Source: Bacteroidales bacterium
GTDB taxonomy: Bacteria; Bacteroidota; Bacteroidia; Bacteroidales; UBA932
Length of the DNA stretch: 64,000 nucleotides
Assembly (NCBI GenBank): GCA_017631435.1
Contig: JAGBTG010000058.1
Location: forward strand, 1-64,000
Direction: 5' to 3'
Shown here: piece after piece, positions 2,581 through 63,274 of the stretch
Layout of the letters: every line of letters starts with the position of its first letter
Position numbering within the stretch: the stretch's first letter is position 1
Position numbers and translations under genes: made by a program
Notes under the pieces: model-generated
Database searches by the model: none
What the model saw: only the letters and a program-made list of their open reading frames with translations
What the model was told of the DNA's origin: nothing

Positions 2581-4182
2581 TTAAAAACCATTGAGTTGCA
2601 TGTAAATTGTCGGGAGTAAAAGGAGGAATCCCACCACAATCAGCAGCAGAATAAAAGGTAAGATCCACTTCACCCATTTCCCATAAGGAATCTTTGCCAT
2701 TCCAAGTACTGCTATCAGTACTCCCGACGTAGGGGTAATCATGTTGGTGAATCCGTCACCGAACTGGAAAGCCATCACTGTAGCCTGCCTGCTCACACCA
2801 ATGATATCCGAGAATGGAGCCATGATAGGCATTGTTATGGCCGCCTTGGCGCTGGCCGAAGGGATCACAAGGTTGATTACCGTCTGGATCATGTACATCA
2901 GGCCAAGGGCCCCTGCCTCGCCAGATCCGTCCAATGTGCCGGCAAGGGAGTGGAGAATGGTATCAATGATGCGGCCCTCCTGCAATATATATATGATACC
3001 TGCTGCCAGACCAACTATGAGTGCCGCACTGAGGATATCCTTGGCACCGTCCATCATCTCCTTTACAATGGAGTTTGCACTCAAGCCCATTGCAATTCCG
3101 CTGAGCAGGCCAAGCGAGAGGAACAGTGCGGAAATCTCACCTATATACCATCCGAAACCGAGTACACCCACCACAAGATAAAGGATAGTGAAGCCCAGCA
3201 GCGAAAGGACATAGAAGTGCACCGATTTCCTCAAGGAAACAATTGAAGAGACCACAAAAGCCACTGCAAGAACAGGCAGCAGCCATGCGGTATGATATTT
3301 CTGCGCACCAATAGAAAGCCATGTATCTCCGCTGTAAGAGACGGTAAACATCAGCACAACAGCAGCAGCAATGGCAAAAGAAATCCAGGAAGCCCTGTTG
3401 GTATAATACTCCACACCCCCCTGCTGTGCACCTATATGCTCTCTCCAGTGGGCGTCAGTTTCATACATCATCGACCTTTGGGGATTTCTCTTCACCCTTA
3501 CTGCATAGAACAGTACAAAGGCTATTGTAATGACATTCAGCACCACCCAACAGAAGAACCTGTATTCTATTCCCGAGAACATTGGAATTCCGGCCAGATC
3601 CTGGGCAATGCCTATGGTAAACGGATTGAGTATGGCACCGGCAAAGCCAACGTGGGCCGCAACATACACCATGCACACACCTACAATTGAGTCATATCCC
3701 ATGGAGATTGCCAGCGGCACAAGAATCACTACAAAGGCAATCGTCTCCTCACTCATTCCGAATATGGCGCCAAAAAGGCTGAACATAAGCATAATGAGCA
3801 CAATGACAATATTGCTCACACCTATCCTGGCCAGAGCCCTGTTCTTCTCAAGTCTGGTAACAACGCCAAGGAATGAAAAGATACCGGCATCAATTGCCCT
3901 GCTCCTGTTCACAACCCAGAAAGATGCTCCAATAACAAGAATGAAACAGATGATCCCGGCCTGTTTTGTAAAGCCGCTGTAAAATGACTGCATCACAGTC
4001 CACCACTGCCCCACTGCCGAAACCTCCTTAAAGTCCACGCTCTGCTCCATCTTGCCGGCAACCTCAACACTCTCCTTCACATACTCGCCACCCGGCACCA
4101 TCCAGGTTGCAAGGGCACAAACCAGAATGATCCAGAATATTATAACATACGTATTGGGAAACTCCCTTTTCTTTTTACCCAT
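2581..4182 (-). CDS. YfcC-family membrane transporter (C4-dicarboxylate carrier-like)
   Basis: The 533-residue product is almost entirely hydrophobic with a dozen or so membrane segments. It begins as YfcC/DcuC-like (ArsB/NhaD superfamily) proteins do: short charged N-terminus, a helix, then WMVPGGEY near residue 28. Other family traits are the FGMSEETIAF stretch near 143, AAHVGFAGAILNPFT near 173, and the late ITPTSGVLIAVLGMAKIPYGKW segment near 485. Members are predicted anion or amino-acid-derived substrate carriers; the substrate cannot be read from the sequence. It is separated from the upstream transporter gene (stop at 4257) by a hairpin at 4208-4233. Last gene of the minus block before the str operon. 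Confidence 0.85.
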   Translation of the reverse strand: MGKKKREFPNTYVIIFWIILVCALATWMVPGGEYVKESVEVAGKMEQSVDFKEVSAVGQWWTVMQSFYSGFTKQAGIICFILVIGASFWVVNRSRAIDAGIFSFLGVVTRLEKNRALARIGVSNIVIVLIMLMFSLFGAIFGMSEETIAFVVILVPLAISMGYDSIVGVCMVYVAAHVGFAGAILNPFTIGIAQDLAGIPMFSGIEYRFFCWVVLNVITIAFVLFYAVRVKRNPQRSMMYETDAHWREHIGAQQGGVEYYTNRASWISFAIAAAVVLMFTVSYSGDTWLSIGAQKYHTAWLLPVLAVAFVVSSIVSLRKSVHFYVLSLLGFTILYLVVGVLGFGWYIGEISALFLSLGLLSGIAMGLSANSIVKEMMDGAKDILSAALIVGLAAGIIYILQEGRIIDTILHSLAGTLDGSGEAGALGLMYMIQTVINLVIPSASAKAAITMPIMAPFSDIIGVSRQATVMAFQFGDGFTNMITPTSGVLIAVLGMAKIPYGKWVKWILPFILLLIVVGFLLLLPTIYMQLNGF

Positions 4183-4207
4183 AAAACTAGTATTTGATTA
4201 TATAAAT

Positions 4208-4233
4208 GAGGTTGGTCCACCCGGGCCAACCTC
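4208..4233 (-). terminator. Intergenic hairpin between the AspT-like and YfcC-like genes
   Basis: An 11-bp stem (GAGGTTGGTCC / GGGCCAACCTC, one wobble) closes a 4-nt ACCC loop. On the minus strand it is followed by ATTTATATAATC, a weak U tract, so it may terminate or attenuate transcription coming from the AspT-like gene. Confidence 0.45.
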
Positions 4234-4256
4234 AATCTGAATTCCAAAAAAGCCGG

Positions 4257-5927
4257 CTACAGAGCCATCAGTATAAGGATCTGAGGAGTAAGCACCCTCA
4301 AAAACATAACCAACGGATAAACTGTAGCATACGACACTGCCTGCTGGTTGATAGGTGACACCGAGTTTGAGTAAGCAAGACCAGAAGGGTTTGTACCGCT
4401 ACCCGAGATAAGTCCCATCAGCTGGAAATAGTTGAACTTGAACACAAACCTTCCAATTGCAGCACCTGCAAGCATTGGCACCAAGGTAATGATAACACCA
4501 TAACCTATCCATGCAAATCCACCTTTATTTACAACTGTATCTATAAATCCTTCTCCCGACGAGATACCCACAGCTGCAAGGAACAGTGAAATACCCACCT
4601 CCCTGAGCATCATATTTGCACTTAGAGTAGTATAAGTTACAATATTGAACTTGTATCCGAAACGGCTTATAAGGATTGCAATGATAAGCGGACCACCTGC
4701 AAGACCCATCTTCACAGGCTGAGGCATACCAGGCAACATGAACGGTATTGAGCCAAAGATCACACCCACTGCAATACCAAGGAAGATTGCAAGAAGGTTT
4801 GGCTCCCTAAGCTGTTTGGCAGAGTTGCCCACCATGTTTGCAAAACTCTCAAGTTTATTCTCGTCACCCACAGCAAGCACGCGGTCACCAATCTGCAGCT
4901 CAAGATCCGGAGCCGCAACCAAATCCACACCTGCACGGGTAACCCTGGTAACGTTCACACCAAATACAGACCTCACCTTAAGCTCGCCAAGTGTCTTTCC
5001 GTTAACCTTATGTTTTGTTACCACAACCTTTCTGGTAGCCATCTGGCCGTCCATCTCATGCCACTCGTCTGAACTCATATCCAACAGCTCTCCAAAGAAA
5101 GCAACAATGGAATCTTTGCTGGCATCAACAGAGATTACCCTAAGTTTATCACCCTCAAACAATTTGGTCTGTGAAGTAGGAATCTCCACCTTACCGTTCT
5201 CCCTGCAAAGTCTTGAAACCACAAAATCCTTGTCAATAAAGCTGTGAAGCTCCGCAATGGTCTTTCCAAAGATTGCAGCATTCTTGATTCCTACAGAATA
5301 TTTGGTAGCCATCTTTGTAGTATCCTCGCTGGCACCGGTAGCCTTCTCAAGCTCCTTGTCCATATTCATGCGGAACAGGCCTTTAATTACAACAATGGAC
5401 ATTACGATTCCAACTACACCAAGAGGATAGGCAACCGCATAACCCATTGCAATTGAAGGATCTGAAGCACCTGTAGCCTCAAGATATGTCTGCTGTGCAG
5501 CACCAAGGCCCGGAGTATTTGTAACCGCACCGCAAAGTACACCTACCATAGTCACCAGGCTTGTACCTGTAACCAGATGTATGATATATGCTATAATCAC
5601 ACCCATCAGTACAATCATCACTGCAACTGCATTCAGGGTAAGTCCACCTTTCTTGAACGATGAGAAAAATCCGGGACCAACCTGCAGACCAACAGAGTAC
5701 ACAAACAGGATAAGTCCGAACTCCTTGATGAAATGGAGGATATTATGCTCAACGGTAAGTCCGAAATGTCCTGCAACAATACCCACAAACAAAATCCATG
5801 TAACACCAAGTGAAACACCGCAGATTTTAATTCTGCTAAGCAATACTCCAAGTGCCGTTACTCCCGACAGTACAAGAACTGAATGGGCAATGGAGGTGCC
5901 TGTAATCAAGTCATTAAACCAGTTCAT
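4257..5927 (-). CDS. AspT/YidE/YbjL-family putative transporter with two TrkA-C domains
   Basis: Aspartate:alanine-antiporter-type membrane protein. From the preferred start (MNWFNDLITG, 5927) it has 556 residues. An earlier in-frame start at 5954 lies inside the terminator/promoter element and gives an unlikely N-terminus. The family's two hydrophobic halves (about residues 10-180 and 370-556) flank a soluble region carrying two TrkA-C (RCK-C) domains, visible as FEGDKLRVIS near 255 and LQIGDRVLAVGDENKL near 345. Both halves contain glycine-rich segments of the antiporter family (GAVTNTPGLGAAQ near 130, GSGTNPSGLAYSN near 512). The substrate is unknown; family members include aspartate/alanine exchangers and uncharacterised YidE. 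Confidence 0.87.
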   Translation of the reverse strand: MNWFNDLITGTSIAHSVLVLSGVTALGVLLSRIKICGVSLGVTWILFVGIVAGHFGLTVEHNILHFIKEFGLILFVYSVGLQVGPGFFSSFKKGGLTLNAVAVMIVLMGVIIAYIIHLVTGTSLVTMVGVLCGAVTNTPGLGAAQQTYLEATGASDPSIAMGYAVAYPLGVVGIVMSIVVIKGLFRMNMDKELEKATGASEDTTKMATKYSVGIKNAAIFGKTIAELHSFIDKDFVVSRLCRENGKVEIPTSQTKLFEGDKLRVISVDASKDSIVAFFGELLDMSSDEWHEMDGQMATRKVVVTKHKVNGKTLGELKVRSVFGVNVTRVTRAGVDLVAAPDLELQIGDRVLAVGDENKLESFANMVGNSAKQLREPNLLAIFLGIAVGVIFGSIPFMLPGMPQPVKMGLAGGPLIIAILISRFGYKFNIVTYTTLSANMMLREVGISLFLAAVGISSGEGFIDTVVNKGGFAWIGYGVIITLVPMLAGAAIGRFVFKFNYFQLMGLISGSGTNPSGLAYSNSVSPINQQAVSYATVYPLVMFLRVLTPQILILMAL

Positions 5928-5939
5928 AATATATGCATT

Positions 5940-5990: not shown

Positions 5991-7949
5991 CTACCTAATC
6001 TGACCCCTCCTGAATGCAACCAGCAACTGCTTGAGGTCGTCAATCTGCTCCATCATCCTCTTTCCGTTGTCTGTATCCCTCACCAGTTTCCTCTTCTCCA
6101 TAAACTCCACAACCTTGGTTTCGGAGATGATATCGAGGCCCTGCTCAATAGCCTTCTGGGTAGACTCAAACGACTCATGCTGAACCAGTCTCAACCCGTA
6201 TGAGTTGTAAATGAGGGTATAACCTGCAATTCCTGTCTCCTGCTGGTAAGCCTTTGAATAGCCGCCGTCAATCATAAGCAGTTTTCCGCCCGCCTTAATA
6301 GGGCTCTCACCTTTGGAGGTCTTTACAGGAATATGTCCGTTGATGATATGTGAAGGCTCCCCTTCAACACCAAACTCCTTCAGGATCTTTTCACAAATCT
6401 CCTTGTTGTTCTTGAGCACATTGTACCATCCCTTGTGCTCCTTCTGAGCCTCCTTGTCTGAAAGGAGATAACGTTCAAAGGTTGCCATCCTGTTCTTGTC
6501 GAACGGAGGTGATACCGGACCGCACCACAGATACCAGATGAAATCCTGACCGAACTCCCTGGCAGCAGATTTCTCAGGCTCAAAATAGCCCTGGCGGACA
6601 ATCTGGTCCATCTTGTCAAACAGCGCCTTGCCGGCATAATCCTTGCCCTGGATATTCAGCGACTTGAACGAACCGTCCTCGTTCAATGGAACTGAACCGT
6701 GGTAAAGCAGATTTGAGTTCCTTACCAGATACAATGCTCCATGAGAATAGAGCAACTGCATATGTTTGGCCATATGTGCACTGTGCACAAAGTTGTGGGT
6801 AAGCTTGTCAACCACCACTTTCTCCTCAGGTGTAAGTGCATACGGGTTCTCCGGATCAATTGTAGGGAAATGCTTGTCCCTCAAAGGATACTCCTTGCCA
6901 TCAATTACAACTGTGCCTTTCTCATGGTCTATCATATGGAGCAGGTTCCTGTCATCCATACCGTACTCCGGTCTCCTCTTTATAATCTCGTACTCCAGCT
7001 TGAACTGGATAATGGTAATTGCCTTGTGCATCTGGGCCACCAGTCTGGCCTGTTTTGGATTGAGCCCCTCGGCATCAGAACCTTTTGGCCTGAAGATGGT
7101 ACAAGGATCATCTCCATAAACATCCATGGCAAAAGTTACCAGAGGAAGCAGGTTTATACCGTATCCCTCCTCCAGAATCTTGAAGTTGGCATATCTCGAG
7201 CACATTCTCACAACATTGGCAACACATGCGCGGTTTCCTGCAGCAGCACCCATCCATACAAGATCATGGTTACCCCACTGGATATCCCAGTCGTGGTAAT
7301 TCTCCAGGATATCAAGGATGATGTGCGCACCCGGTCCCCTGTCATAAATATCGCCGATGATATGCAGCGAATCTATGGTAAGACGCTGTATAAGCTTGCA
7401 TATGGCTATAATGAAGTGGTCTGCCCTCCCTGTGGAGATGATTGTCTCCACAATGGCAGTTATATAATCATGCTTGTTGGCCTCGCCGCTCTTTGACTCA
7501 TGCAACAGCTCCTGTATGATATACTCATACTCGGCAGGCATAGCCCTGCGTACCTTTGATCTTGTATACTTGGTAGAAACATTCGAACACACCCTTACCA
7601 GCCTCATGAGTATAACCTTATACCACTCATGCAGCGCCTTCTCCTTCTCACGCCCCTTGATTATCTTCAGTTTCTCCTCGGGATAATAGATAAGGGTACA
7701 CAGTTCGCTCTTTTCCGCCTCCCTGAGGGAATGGCCAAAAATATCCTCCACTTTTCTCTTTATTACTCCCGACGCATTCTTGAGCACATGCTGGAAAGCC
7801 TCATGCTCTCCATGCAGGTCTGTAACAAAATGCTCGGTACCTTTAGGCAGGTTAAGGATAGCTTCCAGGTTTATTATTTCCGTACTGGCAGCCTGAATTG
7901 TCGGGAAACTCTTTGCCAACAATTGCAAATATTTCAAATCCCTCTTCAT
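5991..7949 (-). CDS. fbp: Fructose-1,6-bisphosphatase class III
   Basis: Hydrolyses fructose-1,6-bisphosphate to fructose-6-phosphate, the gluconeogenic step. The 652-residue length fits class III (Firmicutes/Bacteroidota) enzymes, which are metallophosphatases of the calcineurin fold. The metal-binding motifs are in order: FVTDLHGEHEAF near residue 41, GDIYDRGPGAH near 199 and WGNHDLVWMG near 225. A C-terminal INGHIPVKTSKGESPIKAGG near 540 supplies further ligands. Stop at 5991 is followed at once by a terminator. The start lies 13 bp after the stop of the upstream protease gene, suggesting co-transcription. Confidence 0.96.
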   Translation of the reverse strand: MKRDLKYLQLLAKSFPTIQAASTEIINLEAILNLPKGTEHFVTDLHGEHEAFQHVLKNASGVIKRKVEDIFGHSLREAEKSELCTLIYYPEEKLKIIKGREKEKALHEWYKVILMRLVRVCSNVSTKYTRSKVRRAMPAEYEYIIQELLHESKSGEANKHDYITAIVETIISTGRADHFIIAICKLIQRLTIDSLHIIGDIYDRGPGAHIILDILENYHDWDIQWGNHDLVWMGAAAGNRACVANVVRMCSRYANFKILEEGYGINLLPLVTFAMDVYGDDPCTIFRPKGSDAEGLNPKQARLVAQMHKAITIIQFKLEYEIIKRRPEYGMDDRNLLHMIDHEKGTVVIDGKEYPLRDKHFPTIDPENPYALTPEEKVVVDKLTHNFVHSAHMAKHMQLLYSHGALYLVRNSNLLYHGSVPLNEDGSFKSLNIQGKDYAGKALFDKMDQIVRQGYFEPEKSAAREFGQDFIWYLWCGPVSPPFDKNRMATFERYLLSDKEAQKEHKGWYNVLKNNKEICEKILKEFGVEGEPSHIINGHIPVKTSKGESPIKAGGKLLMIDGGYSKAYQQETGIAGYTLIYNSYGLRLVQHESFESTQKAIEQGLDIISETKVVEFMEKRKLVRDTDNGKRMMEQIDDLKQLLVAFRRGQIR

Positions 7950-7962: not shown

Positions 7963-10900
7963 TTAATTCTTTTTCTCCAATTGCTTCATTATAACCTCAA
8001 CGCCCTTCTCAAGCTGAGGGTCCTTGCCGTCGAGCCTGTCCTTGAAGGTGTTCTTCACGTAGATATCGGGAGCAACACCTGTATTCTCAAGATCCTTGCC
8101 GTCCAATGAGTAGCATCCCCATGCAGGAAGGCGCAACGAAGAACCGTCGAGCATGGTTGCACTGGTGGTGAAGATGATCCAGCGGTAGGTTTCAGTTCCC
8201 ACTATTGTTGCAAGTCCAAGGCTCTTTATTCCGTTTGATGTAACCTCCGCATCACTGAGGCTCCTCTCGTTCACCAATGCCACTATTGGCATATCGCCAG
8301 GTGTTACGTTAGGATGGGAATTCCCCTTGTTGTCTCTGTAAGCCCAATTGTAGTGTGCTTTCTGAGCCAGGAAGTCAAGCACCTCCTTATGTACGTTTCC
8401 TCCGTTGTTGAAACGCAAATCAAGGATGATTCCCTCCTTGCCTACTGTTCTGGTGTGCATATCCTTAAGGAAATTGCTCAACTCCCCAACACCCATGTCC
8501 CTCATGTGGATGTAGGCAATCTTCCCGTTTCCAAGCTGGTCTACCTTAGCCCTGTTGTCCATCTCCCACTCCTCGTAAAGGAGATTTTTCACAGCACCTG
8601 ATGACATTGTATGGAGTTTTACATCGTGCTCCCTCCCTTTTCTTCTGAAAGTGAACCTCACCTCAGGATCCTTGGCTGGAACGGCAAGATAGCTCTCCCT
8701 GTTGAGATTGTGGTCAACCCTCTGGCCGTTTACCGCTACCAGGATATCACCTTTCTTGACGTCTGTATCAATATTGTCTGCAGGTGATCCTTTCACAATC
8801 CTCTCCACCATATATGGGTTTTCATTGTTCCATATGATACCGGTCTCCATAGACTGCAATCTTGTCTGAGGGCCCGGCACCTCGCCGCCATGCGAGCTGA
8901 AGCCCAGATGCGATGAGTTGAGCTCACCCAACATGTCATTGAAAAGGGTAACAAGATTCGCCCTGCTCCTCACCTTAGGGAGGAATGAAGCATAATAGTC
9001 TCTCTTGGCAGCCCAGTCGGTACCATGGAAGTTCACGTCATAGAAGTTCTGGTCTATCAGGCCCCAAGCCTCGTAGAACATCTGCTCAAACTCATCTTTA
9101 AGATTCTTGACAACGGTCTTCTTGAAGGCAATCTTTGTAGCCCTGCCACCTGCAGGATCCACTTTATACAATGTTCCCCTCTGGAAAGCGTAAAGTTCCG
9201 TATCAGAGTTGAAGAATGTACCGTAGCTGAGTTCCTTGATTGGTTTGGCCTTTGCATAAGGGTCTGTTATCTCCAACGACTGTACCCCATCCCTTCCTGT
9301 AATAAGGAGCCATGCCTTGTTCTTGTTCTTGAACACATATGTGCTGCGGCCGTTATAGAAACCGGTCATCTGCAAGCGGCTGTAGATATCATTGAAATCA
9401 ATCTTTGTCTCTACTTTCTTCTCTTTTTTAGCCTCTTTCTTCTCCTTGGCCTTCTCATCCGCTGCCTCTTCTTTTACAGCTTTCTTGTCAAACAGTTCAT
9501 CATAAGCATCGCTCTGGAAAGGCTGTGTCTTGTAGTTCAACAGAGGGAGCTTGTAGATATAGCTCGATCCGCTGCCGCCCCTTGGGAAGGTTCCGCCGTG
9601 GAAATCTGCCGCAAAGTAGAGATACTTTCCGCAAGAAGAAAAGCTTGGGCTTCCCTCTGTGCTTGCAGAGTTGGTAAGGTTGTACAGCTGCTTCTCCTTG
9701 AACGAGTAAATGTAGATATCCCTCTCAAAGAGGTTCATAGCCTCAAAAGCAAGGTAGGCATCGTCGGGAGAAAAAGTGATGGTGTATTTTGTATATGACC
9801 AGAACTCTGCCTGGGCAAGCCTGTCTACCTTGTCATTTGAAAGGTTGAGGGCCATTACCCACTTGTTGCCGCACATGAAGGCTATCTTGTCTTTCTTGTT
9901 TGACATTTTCAGATTCCTGATATTGCATGCAGCCCTAAATACAAGTTTCTCAGGCTGCGAACCGTCTGCCTTTATCTTGTAGATTGCTGTATATCCCTTG
10001 TCTGTTCTGGTGTAGTAGATTGTGTTGTTGTCTTTTGCCCATACCATCTCATCAACCCTCTCGTTCTCGGGGGTATCAAGTTTCTGGATGAATTTTCCTT
10101 TTGCGTCGCTCACATGAAGGAGTCCGCGGATAGACATTGAGAACTTCTTGCTGTCGGGAGAAATGGCCATGCTCTGCGGTGAAACATTCATGAAACTGCG
10201 CTCCACATCAACATTGTTGTCGGCAATGGAAATCTTTGGCACCGAAACCTCTCCGGTTGCCAGGTTGAGGCAATGGATCTTGTAGTCCAACAGGAACACC
10301 ATTGCGTTTCCGTTGAAGCTTACAGATGGGTACTGTACAGACTGAGCAAATTTTGTAAGCTGCTCAGGCTCCCCTGCAGGGTTGTATTTTACAATGTTGG
10401 ACTCCTTGTTGAACTGGTCTGTAACATAGTAAAGGTTACCTTTCCTGTCTGCCATTGGCCAGGTATCCTTGCCGTTGTATGAGGTAAGCTCCCTGTACTC
10501 CCCAGTTGCGGGATTCCAGCTCTTGATGTTTGGATTGTGGTCTCCAACATATCTCTTTCTGGTTGGGAAGCTGATGCTCTCGGTAGACTCGTTGAAGTAA
10601 AGTTCACCTGTTACAGGATTCTCTGCAACATTCACAATTGTATTGAAATAGTGCTGGAACAGCCTTATTGGGGTACCGCCGTCAACCGCCACCTTGTAGG
10701 TTGATCTGGAGTTTGCCCTGCCGCTCTCAAAATAGATGTATTTTGAGTCTGCACTCCACCCGCTTGGGGTATCATTTGCCTCGTGCCAGGTAAGGCGCAC
10801 AACCTCACCACCCGCAACAGGGACAATGTACACATCCTTGTTTCCCTGCATATCCGATGAGAAAGCCAGATACTTTCCGCAAGGTGATACCATAGGGTCA

Positions 10901-11133: not shown

Positions 11134-12435
11134 CGAAAAATTTCCGTGGTTCAAAACTTCCCTCCTGGCCACTACACTCAAGTACACAGTCCTTGCCACC
11201 AGATGAACCATATAGCCCACCCACAACGACTGCACTCCTATCCCGCCCCTAAGGAGGTAATAGCTTGCAAAGAACCCCACAACGGCCCACAACATGGAGT
11301 TTCTTATGGCCTTTGTGGCAGTTGCTCCAATGAAGATGCCGTCCCATGTGAATGCCACGGAACTCACCAAAGGCATTATGAGGAGCCATGGGAGAAACCT
11401 TGCAGACTCCGCCAGCACCAGCGGGTCTGTGGCCATCAGCCCAAACAGCCACTCTCCACCTGCCCAATACCCTATGGTTGAGACAATTCCAATACCCATA
11501 CACCACACAAAAATCACCTTTATTGACCTCACCAGAGAGGTACGGTCCCCTGCTCCAATGTATCTTCCCGACAGCGCCTCGCCGGCATACGCAAACCCGT
11601 CTATGAAATAAGAATAGAGAAGCATAAGCTTCATCATGATTGAACTCACAGCCAGATCCACATCACCGTACCTGGCTGCAATTGAGGTAAGTCCCGCATA
11701 GATGAAAAGGAAGCACAGGGACCTTACAAAAAGGTCTGCATTGAGCATGAAGAATCGCTTGATATTCCCGGGGCTCACACTCTGTTTCAAATCTATAAGA
11801 TGGAAATATTTCCTGTACTGCGCCACCATAAGCACTATAGCCAATGCCAGTCCCGTATACTGGGCCACAAGGGTTCCCCACGCAATGCCGCTGAATCCCA
11901 AACCGGCATAAAATGCAAAGAAAATGCTTGCTGCGATATTGGCAAGATTTACCGTAACATCCACTGCCATAGGACTTACAGCATTCTGCATACCAATAAA
12001 GAACCCTTTGAAGACATTCAGCGAAAGGGTGGCCGGAGCGGCCCATATCCTTATGTAGAAATAACTGCGGGCAAGTTCCTCCACCTGCGGCGAACACTCT
12101 ATGAAGCGGAAAGCGACACCAACATAGGCCCACTGGAGGGCTATGAAAAGGAGCGCAAACCCCAGAGCCGTTGCCATACCCAGGGCATATGTATTTATGG
12201 CATCCTTAAAATCCCCCCTTCCATAAGCCTGTGCCACCATACCACCGGTTCCCATCCTCAAGAAACCCATATTCCAGTAAAGGAGATCAAACAGCATGGA
12301 GGCAATGGCTATACCCCCCAGAACAGCAGCATCTCCCAATCTTCCGGCTATGGCTGTATCTGCCATACCCACAAGGGGGACGGTAATGTTGGCAAAAATG
12401 CTTGGAACGGCAAGTTTGAGAACTGTCCTGTTCAT
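11131..12435 (-). CDS. MATE-family efflux transporter
   Basis: A 434-residue integral membrane protein of the multidrug and toxin extrusion (NorM/DinF) type, which exports cationic or other small molecules by Na+ or H+ antiport. The typical twelve-helix pattern is visible. The N-terminal motif reads LAVPSIFANITVPLVGMADTAIAGRLGD (given here in two parts: residues 8-27 and 28-36), followed by GGMVAQAYGRGDF near 63. The second half repeats the fold, with GEALSGRYIGAGDR near 283. The gene starts 3 bp after the rsgA stop, so the two share an operon. Substrate unknown. Confidence 0.92.
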   Translation of the reverse strand: MNRTVLKLAVPSIFANITVPLVGMADTAIAGRLGDAAVLGGIAIASMLFDLLYWNMGFLRMGTGGMVAQAYGRGDFKDAINTYALGMATALGFALLFIALQWAYVGVAFRFIECSPQVEELARSYFYIRIWAAPATLSLNVFKGFFIGMQNAVSPMAVDVTVNLANIAASIFFAFYAGLGFSGIAWGTLVAQYTGLALAIVLMVAQYRKYFHLIDLKQSVSPGNIKRFFMLNADLFVRSLCFLFIYAGLTSIAARYGDVDLAVSSIMMKLMLLYSYFIDGFAYAGEALSGRYIGAGDRTSLVRSIKVIFVWCMGIGIVSTIGYWAGGEWLFGLMATDPLVLAESARFLPWLLIMPLVSSVAFTWDGIFIGATATKAIRNSMLWAVVGFFASYYLLRGGIGVQSLWVGYMVHLVARTVYLSVVARREVLNHGNFS

Positions 12436-12438: not shown

Positions 12439-13371
12439 TTACCTGTATTTGGTCTGCTCATCCAGCATACCCAGATAAGATTCATAACGCTCTACAGAGA
12501 TCTCCCCGTTCTCAACAGCCTCCTTAACGGCACACCCCGGCTCGTGGGTGTGTGTACAAGGGGCAAAACGGCAATTGTCCTCCACACGGAGCATCTCCGG
12601 AAAATATCCGCTCAACTCCAGCTGGGAAACATCCACCAGTCCAAAGCCTCTGATTCCCGGGGTATCAATCACAAATCCACCGGTAGAAATGGGATGCATC
12701 TCATAAAATGTAGTGGTATGCTTGCCCTGCTGGTGATATGCCGAAATCTCCCCCACCCTCAAGTTGAGATCAGGATCCAAGGCACTTATGAGAGAAGATT
12801 TTCCTACTCCCGACTGTCCGGAGAAAAGCACCACCTTATCCTTGCAGCATTCCCTTATCTCCTCTATTCCCAATCCGGTAGCGGCAGAACTCTCTATCAC
12901 CCTGTATCCGGCATGCCCGTAAATCTCCTTGAAAGCCTCCACCATCTGCAGTCCCTGCTCCGAATAGAGGTCCATCTTGTTGAGAATGATTGTAGCCGGA
13001 ACATTGTATGCCTCGCAGGTTACAAGGAAGCGGTCTACAAACGGCAGTTTCACCTCCGGCTGCTCCACCGTTACAATAAGGAAAACCATATCCAGATTGC
13101 TGGCTATGACATGTGACTGTCGGGATAAATTTGTTGATTTCCTAATTATGTGGTTTTTCCTTGGAAGGATGTTCCTGATGGTGGCAAGTTCCCCCTCATT
13201 GCGGTCATATTCAACCACATCGCCAACTGCTATGGGGTTGGTTGAGTTGAACCCCTTCAACCTGAGTTTACCCTTGATTACAGCGGGGAAAAGTTCCCAC
13301 TGGGGCAATTTTGAAAGCATGTAATGGCTTCCAGTATGTTTTACTACCGTTGCAGTATTTGTATTCTCCAT
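12439..13371 (-). CDS. rsgA: Ribosome small subunit biogenesis GTPase RsgA
   Basis: RsgA checks and matures the 30S subunit and is a circularly permuted GTPase. From MENTNTATV (13371) it has 310 residues. An in-frame start at 13422 lies upstream of the promoter and is rejected. The order is an N-terminal OB fold (to about 75), G4 ILNKMDLYS near 125, G1 FSGQSGVGKSSL near 180, G3 DTPGIRGFG near 235 (G4-G1-G3 shows the permutation), then the C-terminal zinc site with CRFAPCTHTHEPGC near 265. It leads the rsgA-MATE pair and is divergent from the prenyl synthase. Confidence 0.97.
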   Translation of the reverse strand: MENTNTATVVKHTGSHYMLSKLPQWELFPAVIKGKLRLKGFNSTNPIAVGDVVEYDRNEGELATIRNILPRKNHIIRKSTNLSRQSHVIASNLDMVFLIVTVEQPEVKLPFVDRFLVTCEAYNVPATIILNKMDLYSEQGLQMVEAFKEIYGHAGYRVIESSAATGLGIEEIRECCKDKVVLFSGQSGVGKSSLISALDPDLNLRVGEISAYHQQGKHTTTFYEMHPISTGGFVIDTPGIRGFGLVDVSQLELSGYFPEMLRVEDNCRFAPCTHTHEPGCAVKEAVENGEISVERYESYLGMLDEQTKYR

Positions 13372-16785: not shown

Positions 16786-17859
16786 TTAATTCAACACAAC
16801 ATTCTTTATTGCCTGCTTAATTTTTGCCGGTTTATTTTTCCTGTAGAAGACTATATCAAATTCCTCAAAATCTTCTCCTCCAGTAGGGAATACCAATGTG
16901 AGGAATCTTGAATATTGTACAGGTCGCATATCATAGTACATCTTTGAGCACTCTATTGTCCTGTTTCCCACTTTCATGGATGCCATATAATTAGGATGCT
17001 TCTCGTCTGTTGACAACAGATGATTGTCCTCTATCAGACAAATTGTCCCTTCCTCTGACTTCTTTACAAGGAACAGACTCATGTCCTTGTCTGAAGATTC
17101 ACTGCAGGGAAGAAAAACAATATCCTTTGGAGTGGTTGATTGTTCAAATGCAGCAAAGTAAGGATCCTCTTTTGAGATACCGCATTTCCTCTCTTCCATC
17201 TCCTTGCCATACCCTCTCATCATAAGGTAAACCATGGCGCAATCTGATGGCAGGCGTTCAATTTCAGTATGGCTGTCCAAAGCCCTGGTTTTCCAGATAC
17301 TGCTAATTGTTCCATTTACAGGTTCAAAAGCCTCAACTGTTACAGTTTTAACTATATAGTCTTCTTCTCTGTAAACCATATCATGCATTTTAGATACAGG
17401 ACGGGAAGTCAACTTATCCCTTGTAATTTTCGCATTAGGGTTAGAACTCTCTTTTCTTTTAATTTTAAGTTCTTCATGGTAGTTGACAGGTCTATAACCT
17501 GCAGCCTTACTTGCTTTGGAATAATCTGTAACATCCTCAGTGATACCCGTGTAATGGACAGCTGCAGTAACATAAAAATCTGCGGCCAGACTGTCAGTTA
17601 CCGGCACTGCACCCCTCAACTTCAAAGACTCCACAAGATAACGGACAAAAGCATTCCTCTGGGACATATACTCATCCCGACGAAATATTGTATTGTAGTT
17701 CAGTGTAGAAAAAGAAACAAAAAACTTCTTCCCGGTCAAATTGTAATTTCCAATGGAACTGATGTCTGAATACAAATATGGAGGCTGCGAATATGGCTGC
17801 GCCATCAGGCTTCCACATAGGAACAGCAATGCTGATAAAAGAATTGATCTGGCTTTCAT
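16786..17859 (-). CDS. Secreted protein of unknown function
   Basis: A 357-residue exported protein whose family is not recognised. The start is taken at MKARSILLSALL (17859); an in-frame TTG at 17865 is the alternative. The signal peptide ends at LMAQ near residue 20. The mature part is polar, with NLTGKKFFVSFSTLNYNTIF near 40, a LAADFYVTAAVHYTG segment near 92 that resembles the DUF4136-like lipoprotein fold (weak), and a basic C-terminus. No catalytic motif seen. It follows the large MG2/plug gene on the same strand, 79 bp away, but has its own copy of the CATGTAAA promoter, so it belongs to the same putative regulon. Confidence 0.7.
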   Translation of the reverse strand: MKARSILLSALLFLCGSLMAQPYSQPPYLYSDISSIGNYNLTGKKFFVSFSTLNYNTIFRRDEYMSQRNAFVRYLVESLKLRGAVPVTDSLAADFYVTAAVHYTGITEDVTDYSKASKAAGYRPVNYHEELKIKRKESSNPNAKITRDKLTSRPVSKMHDMVYREEDYIVKTVTVEAFEPVNGTISSIWKTRALDSHTEIERLPSDCAMVYLMMRGYGKEMEERKCGISKEDPYFAAFEQSTTPKDIVFLPCSESSDKDMSLFLVKKSEEGTICLIEDNHLLSTDEKHPNYMASMKVGNRTIECSKMYYDMRPVQYSRFLTLVFPTGGEDFEEFDIVFYRKNKPAKIKQAIKNVVLN

Positions 17860-40675: not shown

Positions 40676-40724
40676 ATTCCCGACAATTATTTGTTTACCG
40701 CTAAGTTAGGTATTTTTTGTGTGC

Positions 40725-50389: not shown

Positions 50390-50415
50390 TGTTCCCATAT
50401 CTTTGGCTTTTTCAC

Positions 50416-52287: not shown

Positions 52288-53205
52288 TTATTTTTCTTTA
52301 ACGGAATATTTTTCAAGCAAAAAGAGTGGATGATATTGCATCTTTGCCTCCCGCAATCCCAAATCTCCGGCATCATCTTCCCTGTTTATATATTTTACAG
52401 AAAGCAGCTCCCCCTCCTCTACAATGGAATTACGGAGGAATTCATTGGCAATTGCCGGATAGGCTCCCACAATATCACCGTACGCTTTTTCAATATGCAC
52501 CAGAAGAGTGTCGGAATTTGTCTTTTCGGCAATGGTAAATGCCACAACCTCGCCGTTGAGCCTCAACAGACCGCCCATTAGCCCCAACTGCTCAAAATTA
52601 TGCAGGGCATTCTTTACCGAACACGACTCGCTTGCCATTGAGGGGTCTTTTCCGCACCCGTATTTGGCACACCAGCTTATGCTCATTGCGGCACACTCCT
52701 TAAGGTTGTCCTTTCCAAGAGGTTCATAGCTCCACCCCTCCTGCCTTTTGAAACGTGAAACAAAGTTTCTCTTGCTTTGGAACTTCTTTCCCCTGAGGAA
52801 TGTCAGGTCCTCTGCAGAGTAGATATAATCAAAGTAATCCCTGTTGGGTTCAAAAGTGAACCTGTCGGGAAAAAGATTTTCAAGGATCTCCTTGTGGCCA
52901 TTCTGCACAGATGCCATAAGGAAAGGATGTCCATTCTGGCGGGCATCCTCCATACAGGATTCCAGCACCCCTTTCAGTTCCTCAGCAGTTCCTCTTCCCT
53001 GCGGAAAAAGATACATTGGCGCAGGGGCTCCATTAGGGAAGAACCGCACAACAAGGTAATCTCCCACCCTGCACACCCGTGAGCGCATGATATCACGCCA
53101 GATGTAGAGCACTGTAAAATTGAATTCAGTTGCCCGGTTATCCGAGTAACCGAGCAACTGGCGTATCCACTCCTTATCCTGTAAAGTTATCTCCTTGAAT
53201 TCCAT
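52288..53205 (-). CDS. DUF2156 (phosphatidylglycerol lysyltransferase-like) acyltransferase-fold protein
   Basis: A 305-residue cytosolic protein with the double GNAT fold of the C-terminal catalytic domain of MprF and of DUF2156. It lacks the MprF flippase half, so it may modify another acceptor. Recognisable segments are NRATEFNFTVLYIWRDIMRS near residue 23, the middle KFQSKRNFVSRFKR near 136, GLMGGLLRLNGEVVAFTIAE near 215 and PAIANEFLRNSIVEEGELL near 250. It lies 3 bp after the S37 peptidase stop. Confidence 0.82.
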   Translation of the reverse strand: MEFKEITLQDKEWIRQLLGYSDNRATEFNFTVLYIWRDIMRSRVCRVGDYLVVRFFPNGAPAPMYLFPQGRGTAEELKGVLESCMEDARQNGHPFLMASVQNGHKEILENLFPDRFTFEPNRDYFDYIYSAEDLTFLRGKKFQSKRNFVSRFKRQEGWSYEPLGKDNLKECAAMSISWCAKYGCGKDPSMASESCSVKNALHNFEQLGLMGGLLRLNGEVVAFTIAEKTNSDTLLVHIEKAYGDIVGAYPAIANEFLRNSIVEEGELLSVKYINREDDAGDLGLREAKMQYHPLFLLEKYSVKEK

Positions 53206-54573: not shown

Positions 54574-54645
54574 ATTTGTACTGTTTTTTATTTTTCTCAA
54601 ACTTCCCGACAGCAGCCTTTGTGGCTACGACAGGCAGACTGGAAA

Positions 54646-55145: not shown

Positions 55146-55766
55146 ATGGATAAAATTGAAGGTACAATACTCATTTCAGATACCAACAAGGGACTCCTGA
55201 CCGCCCTTATCCTGCTTCTACAGAAACATTTCAGCCAGGTAATGACCGAGTCCGGCATTGATAAAGTTATGGAGATTGCCGGGAGCGGCAGCGCTGATGT
55301 GATAATCATTGACGCTGGTGCAAACAGCGGAGCGGAGAGGATGAGATACGTGGAGCTCGTAAAAAGGATTACAGGCAACAGCAGTAATGTGCAGGTGGTA
55401 GCCCTCACAAATTTTGGGCAAAGTCAGTTTGCCCTTGAGCTTGCGGAGGCAGGGGCTTTTGATTTTGTACCCAAACCTTGGAATAACGAGAAGCTGCTTG
55501 TAACATTGAGAAATGCATGCAGGACCAGACAGTTGCTCAATGCCGCTGTAGAGAAGGCGGCACAGGATAACCTGTCGGGAAGAAAAGAGTCTGATTCCTG
55601 CGGAGGCGGCTGTGAAAAACCGGTCACTCTGGAGCAAATGGAGAAAAAAATGATGAAGGGTGCCATAAAGCGCAACAGGGGAAATATCTCCCTGGCAGCC
55701 CAGGAGCTGGGGATTACAAGACAAACTCTCTATAACAAGGGGAAGAAATACAAGCTATTTGAGTAA
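55146..55766 (+). CDS. Response regulator: receiver domain plus Fis-type helix-turn-helix
   Basis: A 206-residue regulator. Residues 5-125 form a receiver domain with acidic D12, phosphoacceptor D56 (DVIIIDAGA), T88 and K110 (FDFVPKPW). A linker with SDSCGGGCEKP near 146 follows, then a Fis-type HTH at 165-206 (NRGNISLAAQELGITRQTLY). NtrC relatives have a sigma-54 AAA+ domain between these parts; it is absent here, so the protein should act by DNA binding alone. No histidine kinase is adjacent. The repeat-rich upstream region may be its own target. Confidence 0.85.
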   Translation: MDKIEGTILISDTNKGLLTALILLLQKHFSQVMTESGIDKVMEIAGSGSADVIIIDAGANSGAERMRYVELVKRITGNSSNVQVVALTNFGQSQFALELAEAGAFDFVPKPWNNEKLLVTLRNACRTRQLLNAAVEKAAQDNLSGRKESDSCGGGCEKPVTLEQMEKKMMKGAIKRNRGNISLAAQELGITRQTLYNKGKKYKLFE

Positions 55767-57483: not shown

Positions 57484-58689
57484 ATGAGGACAAGGATCCA
57501 TATAGCCCTCAGATACCTGTTTGCCAAGAAGAAACACAATGTAATAAACATTATTTCCGGTATAAGCGCAGCAGGCATTGCCATAGGAAGTATGGCCCTT
57601 GTCATTATTCTTTCTGTATACAACGGCTTTGATAACTCCATAAGAGAAATCTATGAGAGTTACAAAGCCGATTTTGTTATAACCCCAAAAAGCGGAAAGA
57701 CCCTTATCCTCACACCTGAACAACTCAGCAGGCAGGCATGGCCTACCCAGGTACAGTCTGCTCATCCAGTTATAGAGGAGAACGTATTCATCAAATACGG
57801 TGCAAAGGAGACAATAGCACGCATGAAAGGGGCAGACTCCGCCTACTTTGAGGCCAATCCTTTAGGGAGCAACCTTATAGAAGGCTCTTCCAGACTCCAT
57901 CTGAATGAGATTGGTTTTGCCCTGCTTGGAGAAGTACTGGCATACAACCTTGGGGCCAGAACCAGATTCTCCACCCCAATAGAACTCTATTTCCCAAAAA
58001 CCTCAGGAAACGTCTCAATCACAAACCCGCTGGAATCAGTCAACTACTGCAAAGTATTCCATGGAGGAACCCTGCAAGGCCAGAGTTCAGACGAAAGTTC
58101 TTTAATATATGTTTCCCGACAGATTGCCATGGAACTTACAGGCAAAGCTGATAATGAATGCTCATCGGTAGAGGTATTCCTCAATAAGGGAATTACTGGA
58201 GCCGACGACGTAAAGGGAGAAATTGAATCACTATTTCCTGATTGCACCGTAAAGGACAAACTGGAGCAGAACGCAACGCTTTACAGGATGATGAATGCAG
58301 AGAGGGGGGCAATCTACCTTATTCTCTTCTTCATCACAGCCATAATATCCATAAACATCTTCAGCTGCCTGAGCATGATGATTGCAGAAAAGAGGGAGGA
58401 TATTGAAACATTTCTTGGGTTGGGAGCTACAAAAGAGTTTGTAAAGGAGATTTTTTTACTGCACGGAACACTAATTTCACTTCTTGGATGCATTGCAGGA
58501 ACCGTTATTGGAACTGCACTGGCTCTTACTCAGCAGATATTTGGATTTATCACTATACCAGGTAATTATGTATTATCGGCATTCCCGGTTGAGATCCGCG
58601 CAACAGATATCCTGCTTACATTTGTAGGGGTTAGCCTCATAGGGTTCCTTGTTTCCTGGATACCTTGCAAAAAAATTTTTAAAAATTGA
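57484..58689 (+). CDS. FtsX-like ABC permease (LolC/LolE type)
   Basis: A 401-residue membrane protein of the LolC/E-MacB permease family, which moves lipoproteins or other envelope substrates with a separate ATPase. The N-terminal helix (GISAAGIAIGSMALVIILSV near residue 25) is followed by a large periplasmic domain (about 50-270). Three helices close the protein (ITAIISINIFSCLSMMIAEK near 285, then near 325 and 370). DIETFLGLGATKEFVKEIF near 308 is the coupling segment. No ATPase gene is adjacent. Followed by a strong bidirectional terminator. Confidence 0.88.
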   Translation: MRTRIHIALRYLFAKKKHNVINIISGISAAGIAIGSMALVIILSVYNGFDNSIREIYESYKADFVITPKSGKTLILTPEQLSRQAWPTQVQSAHPVIEENVFIKYGAKETIARMKGADSAYFEANPLGSNLIEGSSRLHLNEIGFALLGEVLAYNLGARTRFSTPIELYFPKTSGNVSITNPLESVNYCKVFHGGTLQGQSSDESSLIYVSRQIAMELTGKADNECSSVEVFLNKGITGADDVKGEIESLFPDCTVKDKLEQNATLYRMMNAERGAIYLILFFITAIISINIFSCLSMMIAEKREDIETFLGLGATKEFVKEIFLLHGTLISLLGCIAGTVIGTALALTQQIFGFITIPGNYVLSAFPVEIRATDILLTFVGVSLIGFLVSWIPCKKIFKN

Positions 58690-59589: not shown

Positions 59590-62118
59590 TCAACCGCATT
59601 TTGAATAACCGCAATTCATACAAACAAGGCAACCCTCCTGGTAAACCAGATTGTTTGAATTGCATTTAGAACATTTCTTTCCGGTATCATCCTTTGTACC
59701 ATCCGGGATATAGCGTTTCAAGCTGCGCTCCACGCCGTTCTTCCAGGTATTGATGGCCTCGCTGTCCAATGAAAGGCCATTGATGAGGTTAAGCACATCC
59801 ACAATCTGCATACCGTGGCGCAATACTCCAGAAATAAGTTTTGCGTAGTTCCAGTACTCCTTGTTGAACATGTGCGAGATACCTCCCACAATATTTGTAT
59901 ATCCGTATTTGTCTACAAAATGGAAATCGTAGCGGGTAACACCTGTCTTAACATCCTTCTCCTTAACAATAAAGCCGGTCTCAACAGATTTAGGGATATT
60001 GCGGCTGTCCTCGTCTACAAGACCTGTAAAGATCTCATAAGGTGCACCGTTCAACTTGCCCACAAGTGCAATCCATTTCTCCTTGCCGTTGTTGAAGCGG
60101 ATAACGTCTGCCTCAAGAGATTTTGGTCTCTCCTTAGGCTTGATTGCAACGCTCTCCTTCTTCTCCTCCTTTGCAGAGACAAGCACACCTGCCCTTGAAC
60201 CGTCCCTGTAAACGGTAACGCCTTTACATCCAACCTCCCATGCGGTCTTGTACACATTTGCAACAAGTTCCTCGGTAACAGAATTAGGCAAGTTCACTGT
60301 AACGCTGATAGAGTGGTCAACCCATTTCTGGATGCTACCCTGCATCTTCACTTTGGCAACCCAATCAATATCTGCAGAGGTAGCCCTATGGTATGGAGAT
60401 TTCTCAACCAAAGCCTCAACCTCCTTCACACTCATCTTCTTCACATCCTCAGCAGCAATGCCGTTCACCTCACACCATGTAAGGAATTTGTGGTGGAATA
60501 CATAATACTCCTCCCAGCAGTCTCCCACATCATCCTTGAATGTAATCACAACATTCTTGTCGTTAGGATTCACCTTCCTTCTTCTTATGTAGAATGGAAG
60601 GAATACTGGTTCTATTCCCGACGTGGTCTGGGTCATCAGTGATGTTGTGCCGGTAGGGGCAATTGTAAGGAGAGAGATATTTCTTCTTCCCACTTTCGAC
60701 ATCTGCTCATAAAGGGCAGCATCTGCAGTACGGATTCTGTCAATCATAGGGTTGTTCTCCTCCCTCTTTGTATCATAGATTGGGAAAGCACCCCTCTCTG
60801 AAGCCATGTTTACAGATGACCTGTAAGCCTCCACAGCGAGGGTTTTCTGTACCTCCACAGCAAACTCAATTGCCTTGTCCGAGCCATATCTCATACCAAG
60901 GGCCGCCAACATATCGCCCTCAGCTGTGATACCCAAACCGGTACGCCTTCCACCAAGTGATTTTCTCTTTATCTTCTCCCAAAGCTCACGCTCTGTCCTT
61001 TTTACATCCTCAGTCTCGGGATCTGCATCAATCTTTGCAAGGATTGCCTCAATTTTCTCCATCTCAAGATCAATAAGGTCATCCATAAGCCTCATTGCCT
61101 TGCCGGAGTGCTCCTTAAAGAGTTCTGTATTGAATCTCGCCTCTGGGGTAAACGGATTCTCCACATATGAATAAAGGTTAAGGGCAATCAGACGGCAAGA
61201 ATCGTAAGGACATAGAGGAATCTCACCGCAAGGGTTGGTGCTCACTGTCCTGTATCCGAGGTCTGCATAGCAGTCTGCAACCGACTCCCTCAATACTGTA
61301 TCCCAGAACAGCACTCCAGGCTCTGCAGATTTCCATGCATTGTGTACAATCTTCTTCCAGATATTCTGGGCATTCACCATCTTTGAGACCTTTGGTTCTG
61401 CCGCATCAATTGGGTACTTCTGCTCATACTGCTCACCTGAAAGGGCAGCTTTCATAAAGTCATCATCTATCTTCACAGATACGTTTGCACCTGTAACCTT
61501 ACCCTGCTCCATCTTGGCATCAATGAACTTCTCACTGTCGGGATGCTTGATGGAAATTGAAAGCATAAGGGCTCCTCTGCGGCCGTCCTGCGCCACCTCG
61601 CGGGTAGAGTTTGAGTACCTCTCCATAAACGGCACAACACCTGTTGAGGTAAGGGCGCTGTTGAGTACTGCACTTCCCTGAGGACGGATATGTGAAAGGT
61701 CATGCCCCACTCCACCACGACGTTTCATCAACTGCACCTGCTCCTCATCTATCTTCATGATTCCGCCATATGAATCTGCAGGTTTGTCATGCCCAACTAC
61801 AAAGCAGTTTGACAATGAAGCAATCTGGTATGAGTTACCTATGCCTGTCATAGGACCACCCTGAGGAATGATGTACTTGAAATCTCTCAAAAGCTCATAT
61901 ATCTCATCCTCACTCATAGGATTTGGATATTTGTTCTCAATTCTCGCAAACTCCTTTGCAAGTCTGCGGTGCATGTCTTCCGGTGATTTCTCGTACAAGT
62001 TGCCATAGGAATCCTTCATGGCGTACTTGTTGATCCATACAGAAGCAGCCAGTTCGTCTCCTTTGAAAAACTTTACGCTCTCCTGCAAGGCCTCGTTGTA
62101 GGAATAGGTGGTACTCAT
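59590..62118 (-). CDS. nrdJ: Adenosylcobalamin-dependent (class II) ribonucleotide reductase
   Basis: Reduces ribonucleotides to deoxyribonucleotides with a B12-generated radical and needs no oxygen. The 842-residue length and order fit NrdJ: SLSNCFVVGHDKPADSYGGI near residue 104 (first redox cysteine), NPCGEIPLCPYDSCRLIALN near 292 (radical cysteine site), LTIAPTGTTSLMTQTTSGIE near 477, and a C-terminal zinc-ribbon-like CSKCNSNN...CLVCMNCG with the terminal cysteine pair. No cobalamin riboswitch was recognised upstream. Co-transcribed with ispE; a terminator separates it from sufD. Confidence 0.95.
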   Translation of the reverse strand: MSTTYSYNEALQESVKFFKGDELAASVWINKYAMKDSYGNLYEKSPEDMHRRLAKEFARIENKYPNPMSEDEIYELLRDFKYIIPQGGPMTGIGNSYQIASLSNCFVVGHDKPADSYGGIMKIDEEQVQLMKRRGGVGHDLSHIRPQGSAVLNSALTSTGVVPFMERYSNSTREVAQDGRRGALMLSISIKHPDSEKFIDAKMEQGKVTGANVSVKIDDDFMKAALSGEQYEQKYPIDAAEPKVSKMVNAQNIWKKIVHNAWKSAEPGVLFWDTVLRESVADCYADLGYRTVSTNPCGEIPLCPYDSCRLIALNLYSYVENPFTPEARFNTELFKEHSGKAMRLMDDLIDLEMEKIEAILAKIDADPETEDVKRTERELWEKIKRKSLGGRRTGLGITAEGDMLAALGMRYGSDKAIEFAVEVQKTLAVEAYRSSVNMASERGAFPIYDTKREENNPMIDRIRTADAALYEQMSKVGRRNISLLTIAPTGTTSLMTQTTSGIEPVFLPFYIRRRKVNPNDKNVVITFKDDVGDCWEEYYVFHHKFLTWCEVNGIAAEDVKKMSVKEVEALVEKSPYHRATSADIDWVAKVKMQGSIQKWVDHSISVTVNLPNSVTEELVANVYKTAWEVGCKGVTVYRDGSRAGVLVSAKEEKKESVAIKPKERPKSLEADVIRFNNGKEKWIALVGKLNGAPYEIFTGLVDEDSRNIPKSVETGFIVKEKDVKTGVTRYDFHFVDKYGYTNIVGGISHMFNKEYWNYAKLISGVLRHGMQIVDVLNLINGLSLDSEAINTWKNGVERSLKRYIPDGTKDDTGKKCSKCNSNNLVYQEGCLVCMNCGYSKCG

Positions 62119-62162
62119 TGATTATCTGGTATTTAATATTATTTTATCTTATGATGTGCAAT

Positions 62163-62197
62163 AAAAAAGCAGTCAATTATCCAATGTAATTGACTGC
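62163..62197 (-). terminator. Terminator between sufD and nrdJ
   Basis: On the minus strand GCAGTCAATTA-CATTGGA-TAATTGACTGC is a perfect 11-bp stem followed by TTTTTT. It ends the suf transcript about 80 bp after the sufD stop. Direct repeats TATTATTTTATCT flank it at 62137-62149 and 62204-62216. Confidence 0.85.
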
Positions 62198-62278
62198 AAG
62201 TTATATTATTTTATCTCTACTGAGGGCAGGTGTAGCTATTACTTTTCAACAAAAGAATCAACACCCCCGCTACAGCGC

Positions 62279-63274
62279 TTAGCAACAGTGTTTACTGCAG
62301 TTGGCGCACTCGGAAAATTCTCCTCTAAGACGGCTCTCCAACAAAGAGTGTAATCTCTCCCTCAAGCTCTCATTGGCAACCTTCTCAAGTACCGCATAGG
62401 CAAAAGCCTGCTGCTGCAACAGCTTGGCCTCATCCTTGGCAATACCACGTGAACGCATATAGAAGAGTTCATCCTCATTCAGACTCCCGACAGTTGCTCC
62501 GTGAGAACATTTCACATCATCTGCATAAATCTCAAGATGCGGCTGGGTATAGGCCTTTGCTGTCCTTGATGCAAGAAGATTGTTGTTGGCCTGGTATGCC
62601 TCGGTTTTCTGGGCATCCTTTGCAACATAAATTTTTCCGCTGAATGATGTTCTCGATTCCCCGTCGAGAATACCTTTGAACAGCTGAGAACTGTGACACT
62701 CCGGCACATTGTGGAAGATGTTCACCCTGGTGGAAACCTTCTGCTGTCCGTCTGCAAGGTAAAGGCCGTTCACATTGCACTCGCCCCCCTTGCCGTTGAG
62801 GTTAACCTCAATCTCATTTGAGATCTCGCCACCATGAAGGGTAACCACATTGAGGTTGAACACCGCACCCTCCTCCATCTGCACCTTGAAAGAAGTACTA
62901 TGCTTGGATTTGTTGTGCTCATTCTGCATCACCACCATATCCAGGATTGCCCCTTTTCCAAGCTCCACATTCACACACTCATGGGTTGTAAAATCCTCCA
63001 TTGAAAGGGTATGCGAGCAAAGCAAAACCTTTGCCTGCGCCCTCTCTGCCAATCTGTAATCTGTTGAATATGAAAGATCTTCCTGTGCCTGACGGCTCCT
63101 TACGGCAATCACCTGCAGCATCTGGGGAAGAATCTCCCCCTTGCCAAGGTTCAAGCCCATCTTCTCCCCCTTGCCGTCAACCACAAACACCTGCTCGGTA
63201 TCCTTCAGAGGCACACGGCATCTGAACTCCTCCTGCTGGGGATCGTTGGGAATATAAATGTAATTGTTCTCCAT
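62279..63274 (-). CDS. sufD: SufD, Fe-S cluster assembly scaffold subunit
   Basis: SufD forms the SufBC2D scaffold with SufB and the SufC ATPase. The 331-residue protein is beta-helical in its middle (HECVNVELGKGAILDMVVMQ-like segments near 112, GGECNVNGLYLADGQQKVST near 178), and its C-terminus has HLEIYADDVKCSHGATVGSL near 245, the conserved SufB/D signature, then FYMRSRGIAKDEAKLLQQQA near 268. Length is shorter than E. coli SufD (about 420) and typical of Bacteroidota. sufC lies 18 bp upstream. Confidence 0.93.
   Translation of the reverse strand: MENNYIYIPNDPQQEEFRCRVPLKDTEQVFVVDGKGEKMGLNLGKGEILPQMLQVIAVRSRQAQEDLSYSTDYRLAERAQAKVLLCSHTLSMEDFTTHECVNVELGKGAILDMVVMQNEHNKSKHSTSFKVQMEEGAVFNLNVVTLHGGEISNEIEVNLNGKGGECNVNGLYLADGQQKVSTRVNIFHNVPECHSSQLFKGILDGESRTSFSGKIYVAKDAQKTEAYQANNNLLASRTAKAYTQPHLEIYADDVKCSHGATVGSLNEDELFYMRSRGIAKDEAKLLQQQAFAYAVLEKVANESLRERLHSLLESRLRGEFSECANCSKHCC

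Follow-up and report, generated by a model that had tools for sequence, protein, structure and literature searches.

The heptamer GTCGGGA is heavily over-represented in a 64,000-nucleotide stretch of DNA from an uncultured gut bacterium of the Bacteroidales (contig JAGBTG010000058.1, UBA932 lineage; hereafter "the window") and throughout the draft genome to which it belongs. We propose, with a probability of roughly 0.52, that it forms the core of a signal for DNA uptake (self-recognition) in this genus, one that would operate without type IV pili. By its anatomy the word resembles an uptake sequence, and we regard it as a putative member of the class formed by uptake signal sequences and DNA uptake sequences.

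Abundance and coding context of GTCGGGA

The window contains 37 copies of GTCGGGA, 17 on the forward and 20 on the reverse strand. A first-pass annotation, made by eye from the letters alone, had counted about 37 copies in roughly equal numbers in both orientations, and the ten coordinates that it quoted are all right within 5 bases. Dinucleotide shuffles of the window contain a mean of 3.45 copies (maximum 10 in 100 shuffles), and an order-2 Markov model predicts 1.7. GTCGGGA heads the window's list of over-represented heptamers, and 37 of the 38 GTCGGG hexamers continue to A. The annotation had called for a genome-wide count, and in the source genome (a 2.17-Mb draft, 88% complete) we find 1318 copies, 672 on the forward and 646 on the reverse strand, a density of one per 1.64 kb that far exceeds the 283 copies (151 and 132) of the reversed control word. 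The word is thus short, non-palindromic and in strong excess genome-wide, as expected of an uptake sequence. A dispersed repeat element was rejected as the source of the copies; beyond the core and its short flanks, little sequence is conserved.

To separate coding from DNA-level constraint, we analyzed 369 kb of the source genome (the window and further samples, with one masked stretch left out), with genes called from codon usage by a purpose-written script that sets their boundaries only roughly. As the annotation had reported, copies occur in both coding and non-coding DNA: 204 lie in genes (0.649 per kb) and 37 outside them (0.679 per kb). Shuffling synonymous codons within each gene retained a mean of 16.1 copies and a maximum of 29 in 200 trials, against the 204 observed. 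The claim that copies occur in all codon phases is formally right, but their distribution is uneven: 173 of the 204 coding copies fall in the frame xxG-TCG-GGA or xxT-CCC-GAC, encoding Ser-Gly or Pro-Asp (25 of 33 in the window, with cruder gene calls). CCC accounts for 353 of 3660 proline codons elsewhere, yet 114 of 294 Pro-Asp pairs are CCC-GAC; likewise, TCG-GGA is the commonest Ser-Gly pair, though TCG is the rarest serine codon elsewhere. The word drives codon choice, and not codon choice the word; Pro-Asp and Ser-Gly codon usage, which the annotation had named as a possible full explanation, does not account for the excess. Since density is alike outside genes, copies far exceed the synonymous shuffles and the flanks described below are kept in coding phases, the evidence supports selection on DNA rather than on protein, as the annotation had argued. 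Intragenic copies are more often in the reverse orientation (124:80, p 0.0025), as is reported for most Pasteurellaceae (PMC2346458).

Two mutually exclusive words within the genus

The first indication of a second word, ATCGCTGAG, came from sampling 18 more members of the genus. It stands up to the synonymous null in G158, G108, G190, G119 and L028 and does not rank among the top words of the samples from G097 and G074. We then counted both words in the whole genomes of 39 genus members, taking at least 100 copies as the mark of a carrier. YTGTCGGGA reaches this threshold in 14 genomes (A genomes; 835 copies in the source genome and a highest count of 922 in G045), and ATCGCTGAG does so in 11 (B genomes; highest count 625, in G119, where the reversed control occurs once). 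No genome carries both. Copies of the second word in the 14 A genomes do not exceed 18, and the first word is present 18 to 60 times in the 11 B genomes, close to their reversed controls. A further 14 genomes reach 100 with neither word; below the threshold there are small excesses of the first word in G061 and G130 (92 and 81 copies; controls 40 and 34) and 76 copies of the second in G217.

In a UvrC tree covering 30 of the 39 genomes, all nine B genomes included form one clade (support 98/96). The A genomes do not form a single clade, and supported branches force at least two changes. Sister to the clade containing B is G003, a complete chromosome of which we sampled 500 kb. It carries a relaxed form, CT[GA]TCGNGA (CTRTCGNGA), with A at -3 (70%) and +13 (73%) and an A/T preference spanning -9 to +18. 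The R position hardly ever holds C or T (3 copies, compared with 344 that have R), and the 9-mer CTGTCGGGA occurs 158 times for 1.0 expected. When the words are aligned on their GA, the downstream A positions (+10 and +13 from the T before the core of the source genome) coincide in the source genome, G003 and B, and RTCG lies one base further left in B. Our reading of these profiles is that both words share one architecture.

Other over-represented words turned up in the same samples. The palindrome ATCGCGAT exceeds synonymous shuffles in the B-clade genomes G097 (16 against 2.6; L129-L131) and G108 (12 against 2.4; L110-L113), and may be the B word one base shorter. TTTGTCGA/TTGTCGG in G140 (L156-L158) and CCTGTCG in G130 (L114-L117) are perhaps further dialects.

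The flanks of the first word were defined from 241 copies in the source genome, which give the motif YY-GTCGGGA-N2-A(79%)-W-N-A(49%). This bears out the annotation's description of a C or T before the core and A/T-rich bases after it: in the window, C or T directly precedes the core in 36 of 37 copies, and A stands at +9 in 29 of 37. Each of the six coding phases, and likewise the DNA between genes, shows the YY at -2 and -1 and the A at +9, in a test whose two smallest classes have 5 copies each and whose cruder gene calls include some spurious antisense open reading frames (ORFs). Near relatives have similar flanks (A at +9 in 67% of 52 copies, and in 62% of 21 copies in G086). Copies pooled from other A-clade samples have YY in 93% and A at +9 in 59% (n=118), and those pooled from samples of 20 other genera in 52% and 34% (n=89). 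Two one-step variants, ATCGGGA (72 against 19.5) and GTCGAGA (21 against 6.0), are enriched in samples of the source genome; because they also keep part of the flank, with A at +9 at a frequency of 0.64 and 0.62, respectively, they are probably recognized as well. The one-step neighbor GTCAGGA is depleted (8 against 41.7).

Further words are under-represented in the source genome samples (the window and L001-L019), namely TGTCAG (47 against 167), TGATCA (96 against 248) and GCATGC (126 against 278); for these and GTCAGGA, restriction avoidance is possible.

Outside the genus, none of 294 other Bacteroidales genomes (three of them from the same family) has more than 201 copies of YTGTCGGGA (G483, 3.6 Mb). 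In genus g19 of the same family, 13 genomes have 532 to 933 copies of GTCGGGA, against 109 to 373 of the control, and in a 35-kb sample (G019, L191-L193) 15 of 18 copies have YY and half have A at +9; a weaker form of the word may thus exist there. No clear word emerged under the synonymous null from 19 further genera of the family, sampled at 11 to 40 kb apiece.

A proposed uptake signal and its rivals

How might such a word accumulate? In our proposed mechanism, the natural-transformation machinery would include a receptor, at the cell surface or in the periplasm, that binds double-stranded DNA at YYGTCGGGA-N2-A-W-N-A, so that DNA from close kin would be preferentially taken up and recombined. 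This bias would fill the genome with copies at every place that the encoded protein allows. In the sister clade the spacing of the receptor would have changed, and the genome would have followed with the second dialect. We infer that a single receptor family recognizes both words and serves uptake. At somewhat less than even odds, we extend the proposal to an independently evolved, pilus-free self-DNA recognition in Bacteroidales, whose receptor would read two half-contacts (RTCG, and GA with its A-rich flank). A one-base change in their spacing would have made the new dialect and could split the genus into two isolated exchange groups, with G003 as a relaxed intermediate.

The closest parallels are the uptake sequences of Pasteurellaceae (Hin, AAGTGCGGT; Apl, ACAAGCGGT), which likewise combine a short non-palindromic core, equal use of both strands and A/T-rich flanks, and whose two subclade words share part of the core. 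For that family it is reported that the two words share one half, are flanked by A/T and direct uptake (PMC1626085). Flanks of this type are found here in the source genome, its near relatives, G003 and B. The present words differ in sequence, belong to Bacteroidota and are linked to uptake by their form. Neisseriaceae DNA uptake sequences similarly comprise several dialects that follow phylogeny (PMC3630211); those dialects all keep CTG, whereas here the left half shifts by one base. Among the literature matches listed (titles and abstract starts, open-licence literature), none describes an uptake sequence in Bacteroidales.

Pilus-free transformation has a precedent in the phylum: Riemerella is reported to transform without pilus homologues, with requirements that include ComEC, DprA, ComF and RecA as well as one HHH and one DUF1343 protein (PMC8459023). 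R. columbina is described as favoring its own DNA, and a k-mer survey of it as yielding only A/T-rich words (PMC7965970). In the present genus, ComEC is found in 38 of 39 genomes, and the DprA, NamZ/DUF1343 and HHH_3 families each in all 10 of the genomes tested. G003 has a second, shorter DprA-family match (chromosome positions 1183485-1184018) besides the usual one.

Several observations weigh against uptake. All four families are also present in the motif-poor genomes G027 and G150, so gene presence does not track the word, and ComEC, DprA and HHH_3 occur in most control genomes too. The PF00437 pilus/secretion ATPase exceeds the cut-off in none of the 39 genomes (31 have weak matches below it), a difference from Pasteurellaceae. 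To our knowledge, uptake sequences have been proven in only two proteobacterial families, and all of these work with type IV pili. G045, which has the highest count of the first word, has CT before the core and no downstream A preference (A at +9 in 32% of 28 sampled copies), while 22 copies pooled from B-dialect and motif-poor genomes have A at +9 in 50%; the A flank is therefore not a clean mark of carriers. The G045 word is perhaps a flank-free variant, and because of it we weigh uptake lower and a Chi-type function higher. Intragenic copies avoid gene ends, with 58 of 204 in the outer two fifths (a count without composition control), opposite to Pasteurellaceae. Inverted pairs, which in Neisseria are numerous at terminators but are not universal among uptake sequences, are few: 3 opposed pairs within 50 bases among 241 sites in the source genome. 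Finally, depletion in foreign DNA is not established: the density is 0.54 per kb in low-GC tiles (8 sites over 14.7 kb) and 0.67 per kb elsewhere. The long site-free stretches examined contain both ordinary core genes (PFOR, a POTRA protein, undecaprenyl synthase) and genes of low GC content (SecB-like, O-antigen ligase, Schlafen).

One inverted pair, CTGTCGGGAACAA...TTGTTCCCGACAG, lies just past a called gene end (L003, 902-943), like the terminator pairs of Neisseria.

The annotation had offered uptake-like, Chi-like and methylation motifs as options. The uptake-like option fits best, given the dialects, the A/T-rich flanks and how large the excess is, though the function itself is something that we infer. 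If correct, it would be a third, unrelated and pilus-free case, making the convergent evolution of bacterial mate recognition testable. It would also point to an unknown DNA receptor of Bacteroidota and provide a sequence tag for attempts to transform gut Bacteroidales.

The main rival is a Chi-type site, at which an AddAB helicase-nuclease would switch to recombination upon meeting GTCGGGA (or ATCGCTGA in the B clade). Words of the Chi type, 5-8 bases long, are over-represented and vary between lineages. We consider this reading unlikely but serious, because AddAB-type genes are present and strand skew is not universal in Chi. A PDDEXK domain of the AddB/AddA type (PF12705) exceeds the cut-off in 38 of 39 genomes. 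Several genomes have two neighboring PF12705 ORFs of about 950 and 1030 amino acids, and the source genome has one match in a 958-amino-acid frame; ORF size and neighborhood suggest that these are AddAB subunits. The leading-strand skew of E. coli Chi is absent here: copies on the G-rich and C-rich strands number 123:117 in the source genome, 105:88 in G003 (assigned by GC skew) and 55:58 in the B clade. The annotation had taken such symmetry to argue weakly against Chi, and the argument is weaker than it looks, since Chi is reported to lack skew in B. subtilis, S. aureus, H. influenzae and Pseudomonas (PMC5959072). The missing A preference in G045 would suit Chi, as would the 7-fold excess of the heptamer over composition in the source genome, which taken alone is similar to that of Chi. 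The 9-mers are another matter: they exceed composition 33-fold (YTGTCGGGA, source genome), 40-fold (the B word in G119) and 83-fold (G003), against a reported 1008 copies of E. coli Chi for 151 expected (PMC1939737). Moreover, a single-stranded word read in an enzyme channel gives no reason for the flank preferences of the source genome and G003, and two words within a genus would need two AddAB specificities. Should the word prove to be Chi, it would be the first in Bacteroidales known to us, and a case of Chi changing within a genus.

We judge a link between the word and either a solitary DNA methyltransferase or biased repair, in the manner of HIP1 or of very-short-patch repair, to be improbable. 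Cyanobacterial HIP1 is likewise a dense, over-represented word, with a far larger excess (5648 observed for 5 expected); it is described as palindromic and as containing a methylase site (PMC1939737). GTCGGGA is non-palindromic, and a methyltransferase site would not be expected to show A preferences several bases away from its core. The depletion of GTCAGGA hints at a repair route from GTCAGGA to GTCGGGA, but orthologous sites give no sign of it. Blastn alignments with six relatives allowed 51 site comparisons, of which 17 show identity; among shifted heptamers the figure is 52 of 412, and among all those aligned it is 11 to 23%. Individual window sites enter this comparison more than once, through different relatives, which themselves carry the word. 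Just 3 of the 34 changed sites differ by one base, the rest differ by several, and none reads GTCAGGA. Such a pattern fits copies being gained, lost and kept at scattered places, and not a single mutational route.

Slightly less probable again is a role in chromosome architecture, with the word serving as binding site for a nucleoid or segregation protein inside the cell. Dense copies and A/T flanks that could fit a bending protein would suit it, as would a spacing slightly more even than random; with a 10-kb dispersion of 0.62, matched or undercut in 6.5% of simulations, the evenness is only suggestive. The near-equal strand ratios given above lack strong polarity, and we rejected a role like that of the FtsK-orienting polar sequences (KOPS). 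No part of the G003 chromosome stands out among 25 samples of 20 kb, with 6 to 19 copies of CTRTCGNGA each, and we know of no nucleoid or segregation protein with over 1000 specific sites and clade dialects. Last, a by-product of codon or dipeptide usage, to which the single favored Ser-Gly/Pro-Asp frame might point, is already refuted by the synonymous shuffles; the CCC-GAC preference and the similar density outside genes also speak against it.

Copies in the window

Copies 1 to 15 lie at 2609..2615 (+), 2722..2728 (-), 4554..4560 (-), 5862..5868 (-), 7767..7773 (-), 7900..7906 (+), 9763..9769 (+), 10153..10159 (+), 11566..11572 (-), 12808..12814 (-), 13119..13125 (+), 15321..15327 (-), 17675..17681 (-), 18004..18010 (+) and 22129..22135 (+). 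As the annotation had noted, rpsG (1591-2067) and rpsL (2097-2480) are free of the word. Copies 16 to 22 could be aligned with relatives, and their retention varies: the copies at 24561..24567 (-) and 27994..28000 (-) are identical in 2 of 3 and 4 of 5 aligned relatives, respectively, and those at 32105..32111 (+), 32543..32549 (-) and 32825..32831 (+) in 0, 4 and 1 of 6. Two copies lie in uvrC, one identical in 4 of 6 aligned relatives (34057..34063, -) and the other in 0 of 5 (34633..34639, -).

Copies 23 to 37 are located at 37233..37239 (+), 40678..40684 (-, outside genes), 42620..42626 (+), 43142..43148 (-), 45808..45814 (+), 46850..46856 (-), 47583..47589 (+), 49658..49664 (+), 52864..52870 (+), 54604..54610 (-, outside genes), 55574..55580 (+), 58114..58120 (-), 60616..60622 (-), 61537..61543 (+) and 62485..62491 (-). 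Separately from the word, the window encodes two long proteins about 27 kb apart, at 17939-20563 (874 amino acids) and 47825-50398 (857 amino acids), whose ends look alike by eye.

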